A stretch of DNA of 64,000 nt from Lachnospiraceae bacterium (GTDB lineage Bacteria; Bacillota; Clostridia; Lachnospirales; Lachnospiraceae), in assembly GCA_017453065.1 (NCBI GenBank), contig JAFTKW010000011.1, forward strand, positions 62,001 through 126,000. Direction: 5' to 3'. This document shows positions 49,993-62,743 of this stretch, piece after piece (the first letter of the stretch is position 1; every line of letters starts with the position of its first letter). Under the pieces are notes generated by a model that saw only the letters and a program-made list of their open reading frames with translations, ran no database searches and was not told the DNA's origin. The position numbers and the translations under genes are program-made.

Positions 49993-51399
49993 CTAGATTA
50001 GAATCAGCCAAAATGCTCCTAATATCAAAGGCATACACAAAACATATGCAAAGATACTCAGTCTATGATCCAATGCAAGTTCGTAACTCTTTTCTTTCTT
50101 GTAATAATTACAGTACATCAGCAGTATAGCACTTGCAAATGCTATGGCTGCTACCATCCAAAGTGCCCATGCTGGAACACTTTGTTCTATATACACTGCC
50201 AGGTTTCGGCAGGTGTAAAATCCATATCTGTCGCTTCCAAAATAATCGCATATCTGTGTTATCCAAGAATTCTTCAACACAAAAAGCGTATTCATATTGT
50301 TTTCCACGCCCACGGTCAAATTCCAAAAGGCTCTACAATAAGTTAGCAGGGTCAGCAAAAACAGATTCATGTTTTGCATGGTACTGTTTAAAACCACCGC
50401 TGTAATCAAGAATGGAACATAAATAAATGTTCTGTAGAAATAATTGTCCATCAGAAAAGAGATAATCATCACAATGGCAGTGACGATGTACAATAGTTCT
50501 CTACCCTCAAAAGACTTTCTTGTATATGCAAAGAACAATACCAGGATACACAGGACGATGCTAACCGGCACTAGACCCATGGTAGTCTGCACATTTGAAA
50601 CCGGGAACATTTGCTCCACTACTCGTTCTAAGGAATAGCCACCCTTCATGATTTGATAAATCTCATCATTTCTATATGCAAATTCAAATAGCATGAGAGG
50701 AATAAACAAGCACCCTTCATACAACGCAATCTTGATGACACTCTTTTCCTTATACAAAATTAATGCGGTTACTGGCAAAATCATAATCGGGCAAAAGCTC
50801 ACAGACACTACACACAGCAAATATGCCCATTTCCATTTGTCACATAGCATGAAATAAACCGCCAGTAGCAGGCAAAATACATATGCCACTTCATCCTGAC
50901 CAGTATACTCCGCAGAAATCAGAATTTCTGGTGCGGCCAAAATCAGCAACATTGAAGCCCAGTTTTGTCTGCCTAGTTTCTTGCAGATGAGGTAAGAAAC
51001 ATAAGCCATTCCCACATGAAATCCCATAAAGTAAAGCTTTGACCACAATATACAATATGGATTGCCTATTACTGTTAGGTCAAACAAATTCACTATCACC
51101 CACATTGGGAAATTCCAAATACTGAGTGGAATCAGCCAGAGATAATTTCCCTGACAATATTGGTGCATTACCCCATGGAGGTTCAAGCTGGTGTAGGAGT
51201 AAAAATCCTTTAGTCCTAAATCATTGTCGAAGATTACATCCCAGATATTGAGACTCCAAGCCGTCAAAGAATCCAGATCCTTGAATTCAAACATCAGCCA
51301 CATAGCAGTAATGGTAAACGCCGCTATGCCAAAGCATAAAAATTTGAATAGATCTTTTTCTCTTATCCATGCAATAATGCTTTTTCTCTCTTTGCTCAC
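49993..51399 (-). CDS. Polytopic membrane protein, possibly GT-C-like
   Basis: A 468-residue protein with about eleven membrane segments and no motif I can name. The first outside loop contains acidic residues (SLNIWDVIFDNDLGLKDFYSY), and GQDEVAY follows in a later loop, which is compatible with a GT-C glycosyltransferase fold. It is the last of four closely spaced genes (22 nt after the YidC fusion) and may provide the sugar or lipid step of that system. The function is inferred from context only. Confidence 0.5.
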   Translation of the reverse strand: MSKERKSIIAWIREKDLFKFLCFGIAAFTITAMWLMFEFKDLDSLTAWSLNIWDVIFDNDLGLKDFYSYTSLNLHGVMHQYCQGNYLWLIPLSIWNFPMWVIVNLFDLTVIGNPYCILWSKLYFMGFHVGMAYVSYLICKKLGRQNWASMLLILAAPEILISAEYTGQDEVAYVFCLLLAVYFMLCDKWKWAYLLCVVSVSFCPIMILPVTALILYKEKSVIKIALYEGCLFIPLMLFEFAYRNDEIYQIMKGGYSLERVVEQMFPVSNVQTTMGLVPVSIVLCILVLFFAYTRKSFEGRELLYIVTAIVMIISFLMDNYFYRTFIYVPFLITAVVLNSTMQNMNLFLLTLLTYCRAFWNLTVGVENNMNTLFVLKNSWITQICDYFGSDRYGFYTCRNLAVYIEQSVPAWALWMVAAIAFASAILLMYCNYYKKEKSYELALDHRLSIFAYVLCMPLILGAFWLILI

Positions 51400-51421: not shown

Positions 51422-54037
51422 CTAAGGCGTTTCCACCTTAAGCCAATTATTTTTGTCTAGTGCGTTTTGGCCCACGATGGTATACCAAACGCCGCTCTCT
51501 GTTTCAATGGTATATTCTGGATTCTGATCATATCCAGTAGCTGTAGTAATCAGAAGGTTTCCCTCTACTTTTGCCTCGCTGGAAATTGGATTTCCTGTAA
51601 ATGGATTCACAGGCTCTTTAACAATTCCTTCCAGTGCCAGCGTTGGCACATCCGCGTTGGTCATAAACTCCTCAGAAGTTGCAAGCTTTGCGCCCTCTCC
51701 GCCAAAGTCTTTCACCAAAAGGATAGGATGGTATCCCTGAATGTCCAACTCCTCGGAAGCTACCAAGTCATCAAACTGTCCTAGCGTACGTCCATGGTCA
51801 GCCACAATAATGATACGCGTATTGTCATACACGCCTTCTTCCTTTAAATACTCCAGCCATTTACCAATCTGAAGATAGGTAGCCATGTTTACATGATAAT
51901 GCTCTAACTGATAGGAATTGTCCATCTTCATAGTTCTTCCATCCAGCGTAAATCTGCTACTATCCTCATAAGCACCATTGTTGACGCTTTCTGCTGGCTC
52001 ATAGTCAGGCATCTGCAAAAGACAAGGTTCGTGTGGTGCTTCGTTGTTAATCATCACAAAGCCACCTTTGCTGTCTTCCTGAATATCTGTCAGTGACTGT
52101 AAGTTGGTCAAAACAGAATAGGATTCCATAAAAGCAGGGCTCTGTGTATTGTTCTTGGTAGACTCGTAGTAGGTTCCATTGTCATATATGAAGCGCTGCA
52201 CCAGTAGTGGAGACGCCTTCATAATACTATACATAAAGAAGTTTCTTTCCTGGCTGTCCTGAATCTTCTTTACTGCTTTTTCGTCATCCGACATATATGC
52301 GCCCATAGTAATATAGGCATCCATCTCTGGATACTGCTCATAAATGGACAAGTCAGAGATCTCTCTATATCCCGCCAATGGTGGATCACAGATTGTCACA
52401 TCATAGCCTTCTTCACTAAAGAGAATTGGCAACACCTGTAACGCCTCGTTCTGTTTGTCCACTGCCAGCACATCATCTCTCTCATTCATCTTGGAAGGGG
52501 TGTATTCATAACCTCCAAAGATTGCCGCAGATGCGTAGATGGTATACTGTCCAAAAGAAATGGTGTTTGGATAGTACACAAAATCTGAAAACTGCTCCGC
52601 AAGGAGTGGCTTTTCCGCCACGATATATGGGAAGTAATCACTGATGGCTCTATCCAACATAAACACGATTACGTTCTGCTCTGTTCTGCTCAAAGTAAGA
52701 ATTGGGGAAACTTCCTTTGTGCTTTCATCTGCGGAGATAGATTTAATGTAATCCATCTCTTGTAATTCTTTGTTGGCGCTAGCCACATCCCATGCGCCCA
52801 ATCCTAACAGGCTGATGGCCAGAATTCCAATCACCGTCTGCCAGAATTTCTGGTGCTTCCACAAAAACCATACCAGTAGTGCAAGGGTCACCGTCACAGC
52901 AAGACTTATCAGTCCCGTGCCCAATTCCACCACAAGCCCTTCGTGGTAAGTTAAAAGTGGAGAAACCGTTCCCGTCTTATTTCCAAACAACATGTAATTG
53001 GCAAGTCCAACTACTGCCAGAATACACAAGCCTTTTTCTAAAATAACTTTTACTTTTGGGCTTCCAACATAGTAAATGATTCCACACCAAACAAGAAATA
53101 CACCTATTGCAACACAGAGCGTAATTCCTACAAAAACCAGTGGACTTCTATATGCATTCAATGAGATGAATTCCGCTGGTGATGCGCTGACTACAGATGC
53201 CGGAATGGCAAGTCCTGTCAAGAATACCAAAAGCAATGCACCCAGGACAAAGTTTTTGGGAGATGAAGCGCTGGCATTCTTTGCGCTGATTTCTTCTGAC
53301 TTTCCGTTTGCAGGTGCATTTGACTCTGCCTTTTCCTGTGCTTTTGCCTTCTTTTTTTCCAGTAATGGCTCGATAATCTTCATCACTACGTTTTTCAGCA
53401 GTGAAAACAAATTGTTCATGGTCCAGTAAAGCACCAGTCCGGAAGGACTCTGATACAAAACCACCAAAAACAATCCCGCCAGAATATATAACTGCAGCTT
53501 GTCCTTCAGCTGAAATCCTTTGGTATAGATAAAGCCAGAAACAATATTAATCAATGTCATCAAAATAGGCATGACGTTGACAGACACATCGCCGATTTGA
53601 ATCAAACGATCTGCCTCGCCTAAGTTCTTCAAAAACAAAAAGGATGCACCCTGCAAATTCACACTTGTCAAATAGTGATATGCAGCAATAAAAAATGGAA
53701 TCTGCAAAAGTAAGGACAGCGAACCTCTGACGGCATTTAGCTGCTGGTAGTTCTGCTGCCTGTAATAGGTGGACAGCATCATAAAGCGCTCATCACCTTT
53801 GAACGTCTTTTTGATATGCTTCACCCAAGGCTCCATCTCTTTCTGTTTGATACGCTCCTGTTCCTGAAGCGCATCGGACCTCTTGTAAAGTGGAAGAATC
53901 AGGAAATTGACCACCAAGCTAACCATGATGATGGCAATTCCATAGTTTCCAAAAAGTCTGGACATAACCGTAAATATAAATTCAATCACCAGAACAAGAG
54001 GCTGTATAAAAATGTTAAAAAATATCTCGCCAATCAT
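51422..54037 (-). CDS. YidC/Oxa1-like domain fused to an alkaline-phosphatase-superfamily transferase
   Basis: An 871-residue membrane protein. Residues 1-225 follow YidC/Oxa1: PLVLVIEFIFTV, GNYGIAIIMVSLVVNFLILPL and SLLLQIPFFIAAYHYL. The essential groove Arg of YidC (Arg366 in E. coli) is Asn44 here. A charged linker (225-262) and about five helices (263-416) follow. Residues 450-820 are a sulfatase/LTA-synthase/EptA-like domain: MLDR with Asp462, NTISFGQYT with probable nucleophile Thr499, NNEAPHEP with His669 and VADHGR with Asp747 and His748. A Thr nucleophile points to phosphoethanolamine- or glycerophosphate-type transfer instead of sulfate hydrolysis. It lies three bases after the TagF-like gene. 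Confidence 0.8.
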   Translation of the reverse strand: MIGEIFFNIFIQPLVLVIEFIFTVMSRLFGNYGIAIIMVSLVVNFLILPLYKRSDALQEQERIKQKEMEPWVKHIKKTFKGDERFMMLSTYYRQQNYQQLNAVRGSLSLLLQIPFFIAAYHYLTSVNLQGASFLFLKNLGEADRLIQIGDVSVNVMPILMTLINIVSGFIYTKGFQLKDKLQLYILAGLFLVVLYQSPSGLVLYWTMNNLFSLLKNVVMKIIEPLLEKKKAKAQEKAESNAPANGKSEEISAKNASASSPKNFVLGALLLVFLTGLAIPASVVSASPAEFISLNAYRSPLVFVGITLCVAIGVFLVWCGIIYYVGSPKVKVILEKGLCILAVVGLANYMLFGNKTGTVSPLLTYHEGLVVELGTGLISLAVTVTLALLVWFLWKHQKFWQTVIGILAISLLGLGAWDVASANKELQEMDYIKSISADESTKEVSPILTLSRTEQNVIVFMLDRAISDYFPYIVAEKPLLAEQFSDFVYYPNTISFGQYTIYASAAIFGGYEYTPSKMNERDDVLAVDKQNEALQVLPILFSEEGYDVTICDPPLAGYREISDLSIYEQYPEMDAYITMGAYMSDDEKAVKKIQDSQERNFFMYSIMKASPLLVQRFIYDNGTYYESTKNNTQSPAFMESYSVLTNLQSLTDIQEDSKGGFVMINNEAPHEPCLLQMPDYEPAESVNNGAYEDSSRFTLDGRTMKMDNSYQLEHYHVNMATYLQIGKWLEYLKEEGVYDNTRIIIVADHGRTLGQFDDLVASEELDIQGYHPILLVKDFGGEGAKLATSEEFMTNADVPTLALEGIVKEPVNPFTGNPISSEAKVEGNLLITTATGYDQNPEYTIETESGVWYTIVGQNALDKNNWLKVETP

Positions 54038-55331: not shown

Positions 55332-57137
55332 TTAAGCGAGAAGCTCCTGTTTCAGTGCTTTTACCAGTGCTTCATTGTCTGCTCTGTCGCGGATGGCAAT
55401 TCGCAAGTAATTTCCTTTGGTCTTTGCACTTAAGTCTTTCACAAAAATATCATATTTCACAAGCAGGCTCTCGGTAAGCTCTGTAGCAGACATACCGCCT
55501 TCTATCTCAATCATCATATAGTTTGCCTGTGAAGGAATCACACGGATTCCTTTTATTTCCGACAATCTCGCTGCAAACCAGTCTCTCTCTTTTACCAGTT
55601 CTCTGGTTGCGGCTTCGTACTCTTTTTCATACTTTCCAAAAATCTGCAAGAAGAATTCCGCAAAGGAGTTGATATTCCAAATGGCCACATCTTTCTTAAG
55701 GAAAGAAATCATCTCCTCATCTGCACTAGCAAGCAGTCCCAAACGAAGACCTGGAATTCCATAAGACTTGGACAGACTCTTTACAATATAGATTTCCGAA
55801 TATTTCTGCAAGATTTCTTCTCTGAGCATACTTCTTACTTCCTCGCATGCAAAATCAGAGAAAGATTCGTCGTAAATCAATCGAATACCTTTCTGCTTAG
55901 TCCAGTCAAAGAGCTTGTAAAGCTGCCCGGACTCAATATAGTTTCCAGAAGGGTTGTCCGGATTGATAAGTACAAGGTTTCGAATATCTTTGTCTTCAAA
56001 GAAGTTGATAATATCCTCTACTGTATAGGAAAAGTCCGGTGCAGATGGCTTAAAAACCACTTCCTGCTCTTTGCTGATACGGTGTCCATATTCTTCAAAG
56101 CTTGGACGAATCAATCCAACCTTTCCATCTACTTTTTCCATCAGAGAACGAATCAATTCTGCTGCCCCGTTTCCAACCAAGATATGCTCCGCCTTGATGC
56201 CTGTGTTTTTGGAAGCCAGCAAACTGTTTACTCTCATGCCAGATGGATATGCGCATAGCAAGTCTCCGTATACCGCTTTCATTTCTTCCTGCATACGAAC
56301 TGGTGGGAAGAAAGGATTTACCAGATAGCAGAAATCTTTAAGTCTTGGGTATCTCCAATAGCCACCAAAACGTCCCTGCATCAGACTTAGACGCTCAGAC
56401 TCTGGTGCAAACATGCTGGTTGCGATGTCCAAATCCTGAGCATCATCTATTTCATACCATTTCTGACCGCTTAATCTCTTGGCATAGATGCCCGGGTTGT
56501 CCAGCACTGCCAATACCTTCAACACCTGTTCATAGTATTCATTGTTTCCAAGCGCCTTGGAATAAGCCTCCAAAAATGGCACATACTTGGTCTCTGAAAA
56601 TTCCTTTGCAAATTTATAAAGATTAACCGTCTTAAAATACTGATCTCTTTCTCTATAGTTAAGTCTTTTTCCAGGAATAAAGGCTTCGATAGAATCATCC
56701 TCTTTCAGTTTCAGACAGGTTCCATCCATCCAGCTTTCATACTGATCTACCAGCGCAAGTGTATCTCTTGGGTCATCCAGCAGGGCATCCAATACCGCTG
56801 GTTCAAAGATAACATCAGACTCCAGCAAAATGGTATCTTCTTTGCAGAGATAATCCTTTGCAAGATAAAGAGAATAGATATTGTTGGTCTTGTCATAGAC
56901 AGGGTTTTCTACAAACTCCACTTTGATATCTATATCCAAACTCTCAATGAACTCTCGAAGCTGAGCGCCTTTATATCCAACCACAATAACAACTCTAGAA
57001 AGATTTTTCTGAGCCAATTGCTTAAGCATTCTTTCAATCAGCGTTTCTCCACAGACCTTCACCATACATTTAGTGTTGTTCTCTGTGTACTCCTTCAGTC
57101 TTTTTCCCATTCCGGCTGCCAAAATAATCGCTTGCAT
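55332..57137 (-). CDS. Nucleotidyltransferase - PLP aminotransferase/decarboxylase fusion
   Basis: A 601-residue cytoplasmic protein. Residues 1-240 are a sugar-1-phosphate/phosphocholine-type nucleotidyltransferase: AIILAAGMGKRL, KCMVKVCGETLIERML and ESDVIF. Residues 250-601 are a fold-type I PLP enzyme close to HisC/CobD: NPDNPSG (392-398), YDESFSDF with Asp423, and SLSKSYGIPGLRLG with PLP Lys457. A likely role is to make an amino-alcohol phosphate (ethanolamine, aminopropanol or serinol type) and to activate it with CTP for the TagF-like transferase. This is inferred from LicC- and CobD-like relatives in capsule pathways. It is the first gene of the operon. Confidence 0.82.
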   Translation of the reverse strand: MQAIILAAGMGKRLKEYTENNTKCMVKVCGETLIERMLKQLAQKNLSRVVIVVGYKGAQLREFIESLDIDIKVEFVENPVYDKTNNIYSLYLAKDYLCKEDTILLESDVIFEPAVLDALLDDPRDTLALVDQYESWMDGTCLKLKEDDSIEAFIPGKRLNYRERDQYFKTVNLYKFAKEFSETKYVPFLEAYSKALGNNEYYEQVLKVLAVLDNPGIYAKRLSGQKWYEIDDAQDLDIATSMFAPESERLSLMQGRFGGYWRYPRLKDFCYLVNPFFPPVRMQEEMKAVYGDLLCAYPSGMRVNSLLASKNTGIKAEHILVGNGAAELIRSLMEKVDGKVGLIRPSFEEYGHRISKEQEVVFKPSAPDFSYTVEDIINFFEDKDIRNLVLINPDNPSGNYIESGQLYKLFDWTKQKGIRLIYDESFSDFACEEVRSMLREEILQKYSEIYIVKSLSKSYGIPGLRLGLLASADEEMISFLKKDVAIWNINSFAEFFLQIFGKYEKEYEAATRELVKERDWFAARLSEIKGIRVIPSQANYMMIEIEGGMSATELTESLLVKYDIFVKDLSAKTKGNYLRIAIRDRADNEALVKALKQELLA

Positions 57138-61465: not shown

Positions 61466-62743
61466 TTAGCCGATTTTGTCCTTGCCACCCATGTAAGGAC
61501 GAAGGGCAACTGGAATATTCACAGTTCCATCTTCGTTTACATTGTTCTCCAAGAATGCAATCAGGCCTCTTGGGGAAGCAAGTACTGTATTGTTAAGTGT
61601 ATGAACATAGTATGTTCCATTTTCGCCCTTGGTACGAATACCAAGTCTTCTAGCCTGTGCATCACCAAGTGTAGAGCATGAACCAACCTCAAAGTATTTC
61701 TGCTGTCTTGGGCTCCATGCCTCAACGTCGCAGGATTTCACTTTAAGATCTGCCAAGTCTCCACTACAGCATTCCAAAGTACGAACTGGAATATCAAGGC
61801 TACGGAAAAACTCTACTGTGTACTGCCACATCTTGTTGTACCAGTCCATAGACTCTTCTGGTTTACATAACACAACCATTTCCTGTTTTTCAAACTGATG
61901 CACACGGTATACGCCTCTCTCCTCGATTCCATGAGAACCTACTTCTTTTCTGAAGCATGGAGAATAGGAAGTCATAGTTACAGGAAGGCTCTTCTCTGGA
62001 ACGATTTCTCCTTTGAACTTACCAATCATGGAATGCTCGGAAGTTCCGATAAGGAATAAATCTTCGCCTTCAATCTTGTACATCATAGCTTCCATTTCTG
62101 CGAAGCTCATTACGCCTGTTACTACATTACTACGAATCATGAAAGGTGGAATACAGTAAGTAAATCCTTTGTCAATCATGAAATCTCTAGCATAACTAAT
62201 CATCGCAGAGTGAATACGTGCAGCATCACCCATCAAATAGTAGAAACCGTTTCCACTAGTGCGGCCTGCAGCTTCTTTGTCAAGACCATTAATTCTAGCC
62301 AAGATATCTGCGTGGTATGGAACCTCAAACTCAGGAACCACTGGCTCACCGTATTTCTGGATTTCTACGTTTTCGCTGTCATCTTTACCAATTGGAACAG
62401 ACTCATCAATGATGTTCGGAATCTTCATCATGATTTCTGTAACTTTTTCCTGATACTGTGCCTCAAGTACCTCAAGTTCTGCAAGTCTCTTTGCCCCTGC
62501 AGCCACCTGTGCTTTCTTTTCTTCTGCTTCTTCCTTTTTGCCCTGAGCCATCAATCCGCCGATTTCCTTAGAAATCTTGTTACGATTTGCACGCAAATCA
62601 TCTGCTTCCTGTTTTGCCTTGCGGCTAAGCTGGTCGAGTTCAATCACTTCATCAACCAAACCCAATTTCTGATCCTGGAATTTCTTTCTGATATTTTCTT
62701 TTACCACTTCAGGATTCTCTCTCAAAAACTTTATGTCGATCAT
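61466..62743 (-). CDS. serS: Seryl-tRNA synthetase
   Basis: A 425-residue class II synthetase that charges tRNA-Ser. The N-terminal antiparallel coiled coil (about 25-105, EVIELDQLSRKAKQEADDLRANRNKISKEI) grips the tRNA. Motif 2 is SPCFRKEVGSHGIEERGVYRVHQFEKQEMV, and motif 3 is NNTVLASPRGLIAFLEN. The length is normal. No T-box leader is possible: only 18 nt separate it from the HD-GYP gene. Confidence 0.98.
   Translation of the reverse strand: MIDIKFLRENPEVVKENIRKKFQDQKLGLVDEVIELDQLSRKAKQEADDLRANRNKISKEIGGLMAQGKKEEAEEKKAQVAAGAKRLAELEVLEAQYQEKVTEIMMKIPNIIDESVPIGKDDSENVEIQKYGEPVVPEFEVPYHADILARINGLDKEAAGRTSGNGFYYLMGDAARIHSAMISYARDFMIDKGFTYCIPPFMIRSNVVTGVMSFAEMEAMMYKIEGEDLFLIGTSEHSMIGKFKGEIVPEKSLPVTMTSYSPCFRKEVGSHGIEERGVYRVHQFEKQEMVVLCKPEESMDWYNKMWQYTVEFFRSLDIPVRTLECCSGDLADLKVKSCDVEAWSPRQQKYFEVGSCSTLGDAQARRLGIRTKGENGTYYVHTLNNTVLASPRGLIAFLENNVNEDGTVNIPVALRPYMGGKDKIG

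Follow-up and report, generated by a model that had tools for sequence, protein, structure and literature searches.

The 64,000-nucleotide stretch of Lachnospiraceae bacterium DNA analysed here (positions 62,001 to 126,000 of contig JAFTKW010000011.1, assembly GCA_017453065.1; hereafter the window) contains a gene in which a YidC/Oxa1-like domain is joined to an enzyme of the alkaline-phosphatase (AP) superfamily. This YidC-AP fusion (type A) recurs widely, as 114 fusion open reading frames (ORFs), the window's included, were found across 88 loci, usually with a Glyphos_transf-family phosphotransferase (GPT) nearby. In a second format (type B), the YidC domain is fused to the GPT instead of the AP enzyme. 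From the predicted functions of these genes, we propose a three-part membrane machine that would place phospho- or phosphono-amino-alcohols on the cell surface, a proposal to which we give an even chance. More tentatively, and with the balance leaning slightly against it, a branch of the Oxa1/YidC family may have given up protein insertion for a dedicated role in flipping or scrambling lipid-linked phospho- or phosphono-amino-alcohols, acting between a cytoplasmic loader and an outer transferase, having been fused to the outer enzyme in one lineage and, in another, to the inner one.

Architecture of the YidC-AP fusion

The fusion gene is one open frame of 871 codons, as the original prediction had it, and lies on the minus strand, which had been left unstated. 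The YidC-like core that had been read in residues 1-225 is matched by Pfam 60KD_IMP at residues 32-220 (E 4e-24) and by NCBIfam yidC_oxa1_cterm at residues 31-219 (99.4 bits against a cut-off of 84.3), both above their cut-offs. An AlphaFold model of residues 1-242 (predicted local distance difference test, pLDDT, 93.6) adopts the YidC fold, with the five core helices and the cytoplasmic hairpin of YidC/Oxa1 proteins lying in residues 1-225; its first eight PDB matches are all YidC crystal-structure chains (E 8e-5 or better), the best being 3wo7 (template modeling, TM, scores of 0.68/0.72).

The remainder of the chain also agrees with what had been expected of it, about five more helices followed by an AP-superfamily domain. 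Pfam Sulfatase matches residues 454-755 above cut-off (E 2e-8), and the whole-chain model (pLDDT 89, predicted TM-score 0.83) contains helices at residues 260-285, 299-324, 327-351, 372-394, and 396-427. The first three PDB matches of this model are PbgA/YejM, LtaP, and MCR-1 (E 2e-8 to 5e-8), with modest TM-scores (0.36-0.47 by target length) and root mean square deviations of 13-19 A, and phosphonate monoester hydrolases and sulfatases follow close behind. Since the PbgA and MCR-1 alignments span 697 and 637 columns, respectively, they presumably cover the five-helix membrane part. As modelled, the fusion resembles a complete five-helix LtaS/EptA/PbgA-type enzyme (residues 260-871), and not a catalytic domain alone, with a YidC core added at its N terminus, and the number of helices would locate this catalytic domain outside the cell. 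The fusion thus shares with LtaS, EptA/MCR, and PbgA/YejM the five helices, the outer AP-fold domain, and the Thr and Asp/His residues at the catalytic places, and differs from them by the additional N-terminal YidC, the modest TM-scores, and the usual proximity of a GPT.

The residues highlighted in the original prediction (Asp462, Asp747, His748, His669, and Thr499) are kept in all 114 fusion ORFs. We take Thr499 to be the nucleophile and the Asp and His residues to include the metal ligands, by analogy with LtaS/EptA-type transferases; presumably, Asp462 is the first ligand and stands where LtaS and EptA carry a Glu. A sulfatase identity is not favoured despite the sulfatases among the PDB matches, because sulfatases use an active-site Cys or Ser that is converted to formylglycine, and the presumed nucleophile is a Thr throughout.

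Distribution of the fusion

The carriers are mostly metagenome-assembled genomes (MAGs) of rumen and gut Clostridia, and the fusion is also present in records that are not labelled as MAGs (Schwartzia succinivorans DSM 10502, Butyrivibrio sp. MB2005, and Lachnospiraceae bacterium XBD2001). The Treponema label of two short contigs with the fusion (4.3 and 4.9 kb) possibly reflects mis-binning. The occurrence is patchy: the full-length fusion was found in 9 of 392 genomes drawn from the order (13 matched at E 1e-8, four of them weak partial matches that were set aside) and in 3 of 398 drawn from the phylum, this genome being counted in both. Among 60 relatives, 36 of them from the same genus, 40 matched at E 0.001; beyond the window's own, the only strong match was a fragment in G022 covering residues 510-869 and ended by the contig end, and the others were weak.

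A scan of contigs gave at least 582 relatives, of which the best 80, corresponding to 78 loci, were kept. Adding ten stretches of related genomes and the window itself gives 89 sources (L062-L071, L078-L155, and the window), all with a fusion ORF except L113. The 88 loci are not fully independent, since some share a contig or a genome (for instance L101 and L115) and the G-numbered genomes may repeat species of the named records. Nevertheless, the number of fusion ORFs and loci, with the non-MAG-labelled records among them, rules out that the frame results from mis-assembly or represents two separate genes. A plasmid-borne fusion was also rejected: 37 plasmid records match, none of them over 80% of the query, and the 20 listed cover 21-25% of it, in the YidC part.

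Genes near the fusion

A GPT lies within 7 kb of the fusion in 73 of the 88 loci, and in 32 of the 36 with at least 7 kb on both sides; the corresponding numbers for any gene of head-group synthesis or activation (head-group gene) are 39/88 and 23/36. Contig ends that cut the loci lower these counts. Three head-group sets adjoin one and the same core: an aminoethylphosphonate set (at least one gene in 12 loci, phosphoenolpyruvate (PEP) mutase itself in 8), a choline-kinase-type set (17 loci), and a pyridoxal phosphate (PLP) decarboxylase-like domain fused to a cytidylyltransferase (5 loci). A LicC-type cytidylyltransferase is found in 33 loci. In contrast, neither GPT nor head-group genes were found in any of 20 control stretches (18 kb each) taken from related genomes (0/20 for each; one stretch had a BCCT match). 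These controls were hand-picked from genomes with type A (G077, G186, G387, G368, G109) or type B fusions (G375, G424, G108), and the areas counted differed (7 kb around the fusion for type A, the whole fetched stretch of 5-17 kb for type B, and 18 kb for the controls). Moreover, among the 392 genomes of the order, a close GPT was found in the nine that have the full fusion and in no other; as the two genes lie on different contigs in G387, linkage alone does not explain their co-occurrence. None of these neighbouring genes, which point to a substrate, had been mentioned in the original prediction.

In several loci (L069, L068, L071, L084, L123, L154, and others), multiple YidC-AP copies are adjacent or flank a single GPT, which might mean that each of them acts on an acceptor of its own.

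The YidC-GPT fusions

The type B fusion was found in 22 loci, each matching YidC as well as GPT: 20 fetched from among the 25 long-frame GPT matches of the order survey, plus L073 and L075 (L209 is cut at its start). A separate AP-type protein is encoded in 10 of them, and the five catalytic residues are present in all 11 such proteins. Head-group genes of the same kinds occur in 13 of the 22 fetched stretches, with the aminoethylphosphonate set in seven, the choline-kinase-type set in three, and the PLP/cytidylyltransferase set in two. In our reconstruction (31/114 type A, 21/22 type B, and 22/27 other rows), the YidC domains of each format form one clade, and the type A clade stands apart from the unfused YidC. 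A single clade grouping both formats was not rejected by the approximately unbiased (AU) test (p-AU 0.459; 18, 16, and 20 rows), so that one or two recruitments both fit.

Seven of the 22 loci (L191, L197, L198, L202, L204, L205, L209) encode, beside or near the YidC-GPT fusion, a protein of about 90 residues that has a YIDP motif and probably a single membrane helix; the two that were scanned, from L197 and L205, have no Pfam match. This small protein is likely the counterpart of the N-terminal segment of the type A GPTs described below.

Short YidC-like genes in G199, G213, G183, and G056 were considered as a third, unfused format and rejected, because the four 19-kb stretches around them contain neither a GPT nor a head-group gene; one of these stretches, L158, has a single weak AP match (E 7e-4).

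The groove residue and the conserved polar positions

Asn44 of the fusion indeed aligns with the groove Arg of Bacillus halodurans and Escherichia coli YidC. Across the 114 fusion rows, this position is occupied by Asn in 105, Ser in five, and Gln in three, with one gap. The loss of the positive charge typical of YidC/Oxa1 proteins is therefore general (no Arg or Lys in 113 readable rows), whereas the change to Asn itself is not fixed.

The original prediction had regarded the lost Arg as a sign that the fold was reused, and this argument fails. Within the genus, none of 13 genomes (L076 and twelve loci between L005 and L024) has the charge in its unfused YidC: twelve have Asn, and the housekeeping copy of this genome (L076:11499-12830, outside the window), which adjoins rnpA and jag, a neighbourhood looked at for this copy only, has Tyr. 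The comparison with the housekeeping YidC that had been suggested thus shows that the loss of the Arg is not specific to the fusion. In contrast, unfused YidC of other families (10 rows) have Arg in six, Lys in two, and a gap in two, and the type B fusions have Lys in 17 and Arg in four (21 of 21 readable rows; one of the 22 is unreadable). As the same-genus unfused YidC lack the Arg as well, its replacement by Asn is no sign of a lost function, the residue does not discriminate, and the lost Arg is ruled out as the mark of a new function.

The absence of the Arg from the unfused YidC of this genus is an observation in its own right, as that residue is called strictly conserved. In the excerpt of PMC8920935 available to us, the groove charge is so described, yet the Arg is dispensable in E. 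coli YidC if residue 517 is hydrophilic or aromatic. In the fusion, Trp205 aligns with E. coli Tyr517.

A different set of positions does distinguish the fusion. Thr161, Asn164, Asn208, Ser212, and Lys215, in the membrane helices of the YidC domain, are near-invariant in type A (112-114 of 114) and this polar set is lacking in the 23 unfused YidC rows, which argues that the fusion YidC domain is under selection.

The operon in the window

Four genes follow each other on the minus strand (Table 1): a bifunctional enzyme (55332-57137), the GPT, the fusion, and a 468-residue protein, with gaps of 7 and 3 bp between the first three; the 3 bp separate the GPT stop from the fusion ATG. The 468-residue protein, possibly the last gene of the operon, has no Pfam or NCBIfam match at E 0.05.

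Table 1. Features of the window discussed in the text (window positions).
Feature	Position	Strand	Basis
YidC-AP fusion gene	51422..54037	minus	871 aa, one open frame; two Pfam domains over cut-off
YidC/Oxa1-fold core, residues 1-225	53363..54037	minus	60KD_IMP 32-220; model vs 3wo7 TM 0.68/0.72
Asn44 codon, place of the YidC groove Arg	53906..53908	minus	alignment with B. halodurans and E. coli YidC Arg
Second membrane part, five helices, residues 260-427	52757..53260	minus	model helices; length of PbgA/MCR-1 Foldseek alignments
AP-superfamily catalytic domain, residues 446-871	51425..52702	minus	Sulfatase Pfam; LtaP/LtaS/MCR-1/PMH folds among best PDB matches
Thr499 codon of the fusion	52541-52543	minus	
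GPT, Glyphos_transf-family phosphotransferase, 427 aa, N-terminal YIDPGTG membrane segment	54041..55324	minus	PF04464 E 1.6e-12, over cut-off
Bifunctional LicC-like cytidylyltransferase (1-250) and PLP decarboxylase-like domain (256-601)	55332..57137	minus	NTP_transf_3 and Aminotran_1_2 over cut-off
468-aa protein, eight hydrophobic stretches	49993..51399	minus	22 bp downstream of fusion; hydropathy

The GPT has a weak match to TagF 3l7i (E 0.008). All eight type A GPTs that were aligned begin with a short YIDPGTG tail, which is followed in the window's by one hydrophobic stretch, as judged from hydropathy. In the bifunctional enzyme, the first part is related to LicC (1jyk, 52.5 bits) and the PLP part is much closer to 6oux, a threonine-phosphate-decarboxylase-like structure (172 bits), than to CobD (97) or HisC (96), as would be expected of a serine-phosphate decarboxylase. 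We take 6oux to be a phosphoserine decarboxylase, which would yield phosphoethanolamine. From these similarities, we propose that the enzyme may convert phosphoserine to cytidine diphosphate (CDP)-ethanolamine in one polypeptide. The same kind of fusion between a cytidylyltransferase and a CobD-type PLP decarboxylase-like domain is found, besides the window, in L078, L079, L105, L141, L192, and L202.

In this genome (84.7% complete, 5% contaminated), we found no match to PEP mutase, phosphatidylserine decarboxylase, or LicD. The window's cytidylyltransferase carries a PLP domain and has no neighbouring kinase; the lack of a PEP mutase match disfavours aminoethylphosphonate as the substrate here. 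Similarly, as phosphatidylserine decarboxylase has no match, an EptA-like enzyme may lack its usual donor.

A proposed surface-decoration pathway and its alternatives

In the pathway that we propose, the bifunctional enzyme of the window is predicted from its domains to turn phosphoserine into phosphoethanolamine and then to activate it to CDP-ethanolamine; in relatives, cytidine monophosphate (CMP)-aminoethylphosphonate or CDP-choline would take its place. The GPT would then shift the head group from CDP or CMP to a membrane lipid at the inner face. This lipid may cross to the outer leaflet through the hydrophilic groove of the YidC fold, acting as a scramblase dedicated to the pathway, which is the least certain of the steps. 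Finally, judging from its fold and residues, the outer AP-type domain would load the head group on Thr499 and pass it to a surface polymer or glycolipid. The C-terminal tail of YidC is cytoplasmic, so that a cytoplasmic GPT can follow it directly, as can five helices leading to an outer domain; both formats therefore fit one topology with YidC between the inner and the outer enzyme. According to the part of a preprint available to us (PMC10491306), YidC and Oxa1 scramble lipids in an in vitro assay. The earlier suggestion that the YidC fold serves as the scaffold or lipid channel of a surface transferase is partly supported, without its argument from the lost Arg: the frequent head-group genes and the second format argue for YidC as a fixed partner and possibly a lipid passage.

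Several observations weigh against this pathway. The scrambling known for YidC is unspecific, and a dedicated role would be an extrapolation from it; the near-invariant polar residues are placed in the membrane helices, at positions that may or may not face the groove, and type B retains Lys or Arg in the groove, contrary to the window's type. Regarding the chemistry, a head-group gene within 7 kb is missing from 49 of the 88 type A loci (13 of the 36 with full flanks), and a separate AP-type protein from 12 of the 22 type B loci. Four of the nine fusion genomes encode phosphatidylserine decarboxylase and so have phosphatidylethanolamine available, and the incompleteness of the window's genome limits the weight of its missing match. 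LicD is encoded somewhere in eight of the nine, and some head-group genes may serve it. In addition, no gene fixes the acceptor.

An unlikely alternative, which nevertheless deserves consideration, is that the decoration pathway is the same and the YidC domain is a scaffold, its groove gripping the YIDPGTG helix of the GPT, or that of the small YIDP protein, and tethering the inner and outer enzymes with no passage of lipid. YidC naturally binds such helices, and it would lie next to one in both formats, given the YIDPGTG tail that starts the aligned type A GPTs, the hydrophobic stretch that comes next in the window's, and the separate YIDP protein of the type B loci. However, a scaffold offers the donor no way across the membrane, and the near-invariant polar residues of type A exceed the needs of a passive anchor.

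It is improbable, in our view, that the YidC domain is still an insertase or chaperone for the pathway's own membrane proteins, carried by an otherwise ordinary LtaS/EptA relative. The groove Asn does not exclude insertion, since it is shared with the same-genus unfused YidC, insertion can be independent of the Arg under some conditions (PMC8920935, same excerpt), and the YidC-GPT fusions keep their Lys or Arg. Nevertheless, this genome has a separate housekeeping YidC, and insertion would be a strange task for a domain that is tied to two different enzymes in a single pathway and frequently lies near one and the same cytidylyl-activated chemistry. We regard as very improbable a route in which a lipid-linked glycan is decorated in the cytosol by the GPT (or LicD) and exported by another flippase, with the outer domain left to trim groups on surface polymers or shift them from one polymer to another. 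This is the accepted view of how the Lic pathway operates, and the LicD genes of most fusion genomes would agree with it; however, LicD is found in only 4/88 fusion loci and 0/22 type B loci (BLAST with a single truncated LicD query), it has no match in the window's genome, and across the 392 genomes the fusion is present exactly where a close GPT is.

Comparison with known systems

The fusion has the fold, hairpin, and five-helix core of the YidC/Oxa1/Alb3 insertases (YidC, SpoIIIJ, Oxa1), from which it differs by being tied to a catalytic enzyme, by Asn, Ser, or Gln in the groove, by its own conserved polar residues, and by forming a separate clade. The GPT belongs to the family of the TagF/TarF-type CDP-glycerol phosphotransferases, but it often lies beside CDP-choline, CDP-ethanolamine, or CMP-phosphonate genes and bears an N-terminal YIDPGTG helix or a fused YidC.

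Where head-group genes lie near the fusion (39 of the 88 loci), the activation half resembles the Lic phosphocholine and Pnt phosphonyl-tailoring pathways (LicA/LicC, PntC; PMC6697681, from the part of the article available) in its kinase, its cytidylyltransferase, and the CDP or CMP activation of phosphocholine or aminoethylphosphonate; in the window, no kinase adjoins the cytidylyltransferase. The attachment half differs, as it would consist here of a GPT, YidC, and an outer transferase, and LicD, the attaching enzyme of the Lic pathway, is rare in the loci. Likewise, the bifunctional enzyme has the same layout, an N-terminal LicC-type and a C-terminal PLP domain, as Tde1415 (6pd1), described in that part of PMC6697681 as a PntC fused to an aminoethylphosphonate transaminase; 6pd1 matches the cytidylyltransferase part (residues 2-245), and the PLP domain is closest to 6oux. 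In the same article, nucleotidyl activation is described and the words YidC and sulfatase do not occur in the main text as available; nor do fusion or fused in the available portion of PMC2706819. An attachment machine with a YidC-fold member, or such a fusion, was not found by full-text searches of openly licensed PMC papers, whose matches were judged mainly by titles and the beginnings of abstracts. The parts and the activation chemistry are known, and the attachment machine would be the new part.

If the proposal is correct, the Oxa1/YidC fold would gain a role outside protein insertion, and the proposed link between insertases and lipid scrambling could be tested in a natural system with a chemical read-out. 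The machine could also account for the attachment steps that are missing from phosphonate and phosphocholine decoration of the cell surface in Clostridia of the rumen and gut, and the bifunctional enzyme would provide a single-polypeptide route from phosphoserine to CDP-ethanolamine in a genome lacking a phosphatidylserine decarboxylase match.

Other observations

Eight loci (L069, L070, L096, L099, L125, L133, L138, L145) encode a single chain with a winged-helix-like part, a LicC-type cytidylyltransferase, and a choline-kinase-type domain, identified by BLAST and, for L069 and L138 only, by Pfam; judging from its domains, it is perhaps a self-regulating CDP-choline enzyme. Finally, beside the YidC-AP fusion of L066 (L066:11370-15465) are a BCCT-like transporter (by similarity to L096), a URO-D-family protein, and an MTTB-type methyltransferase, which suggests competition for choline or betaine.

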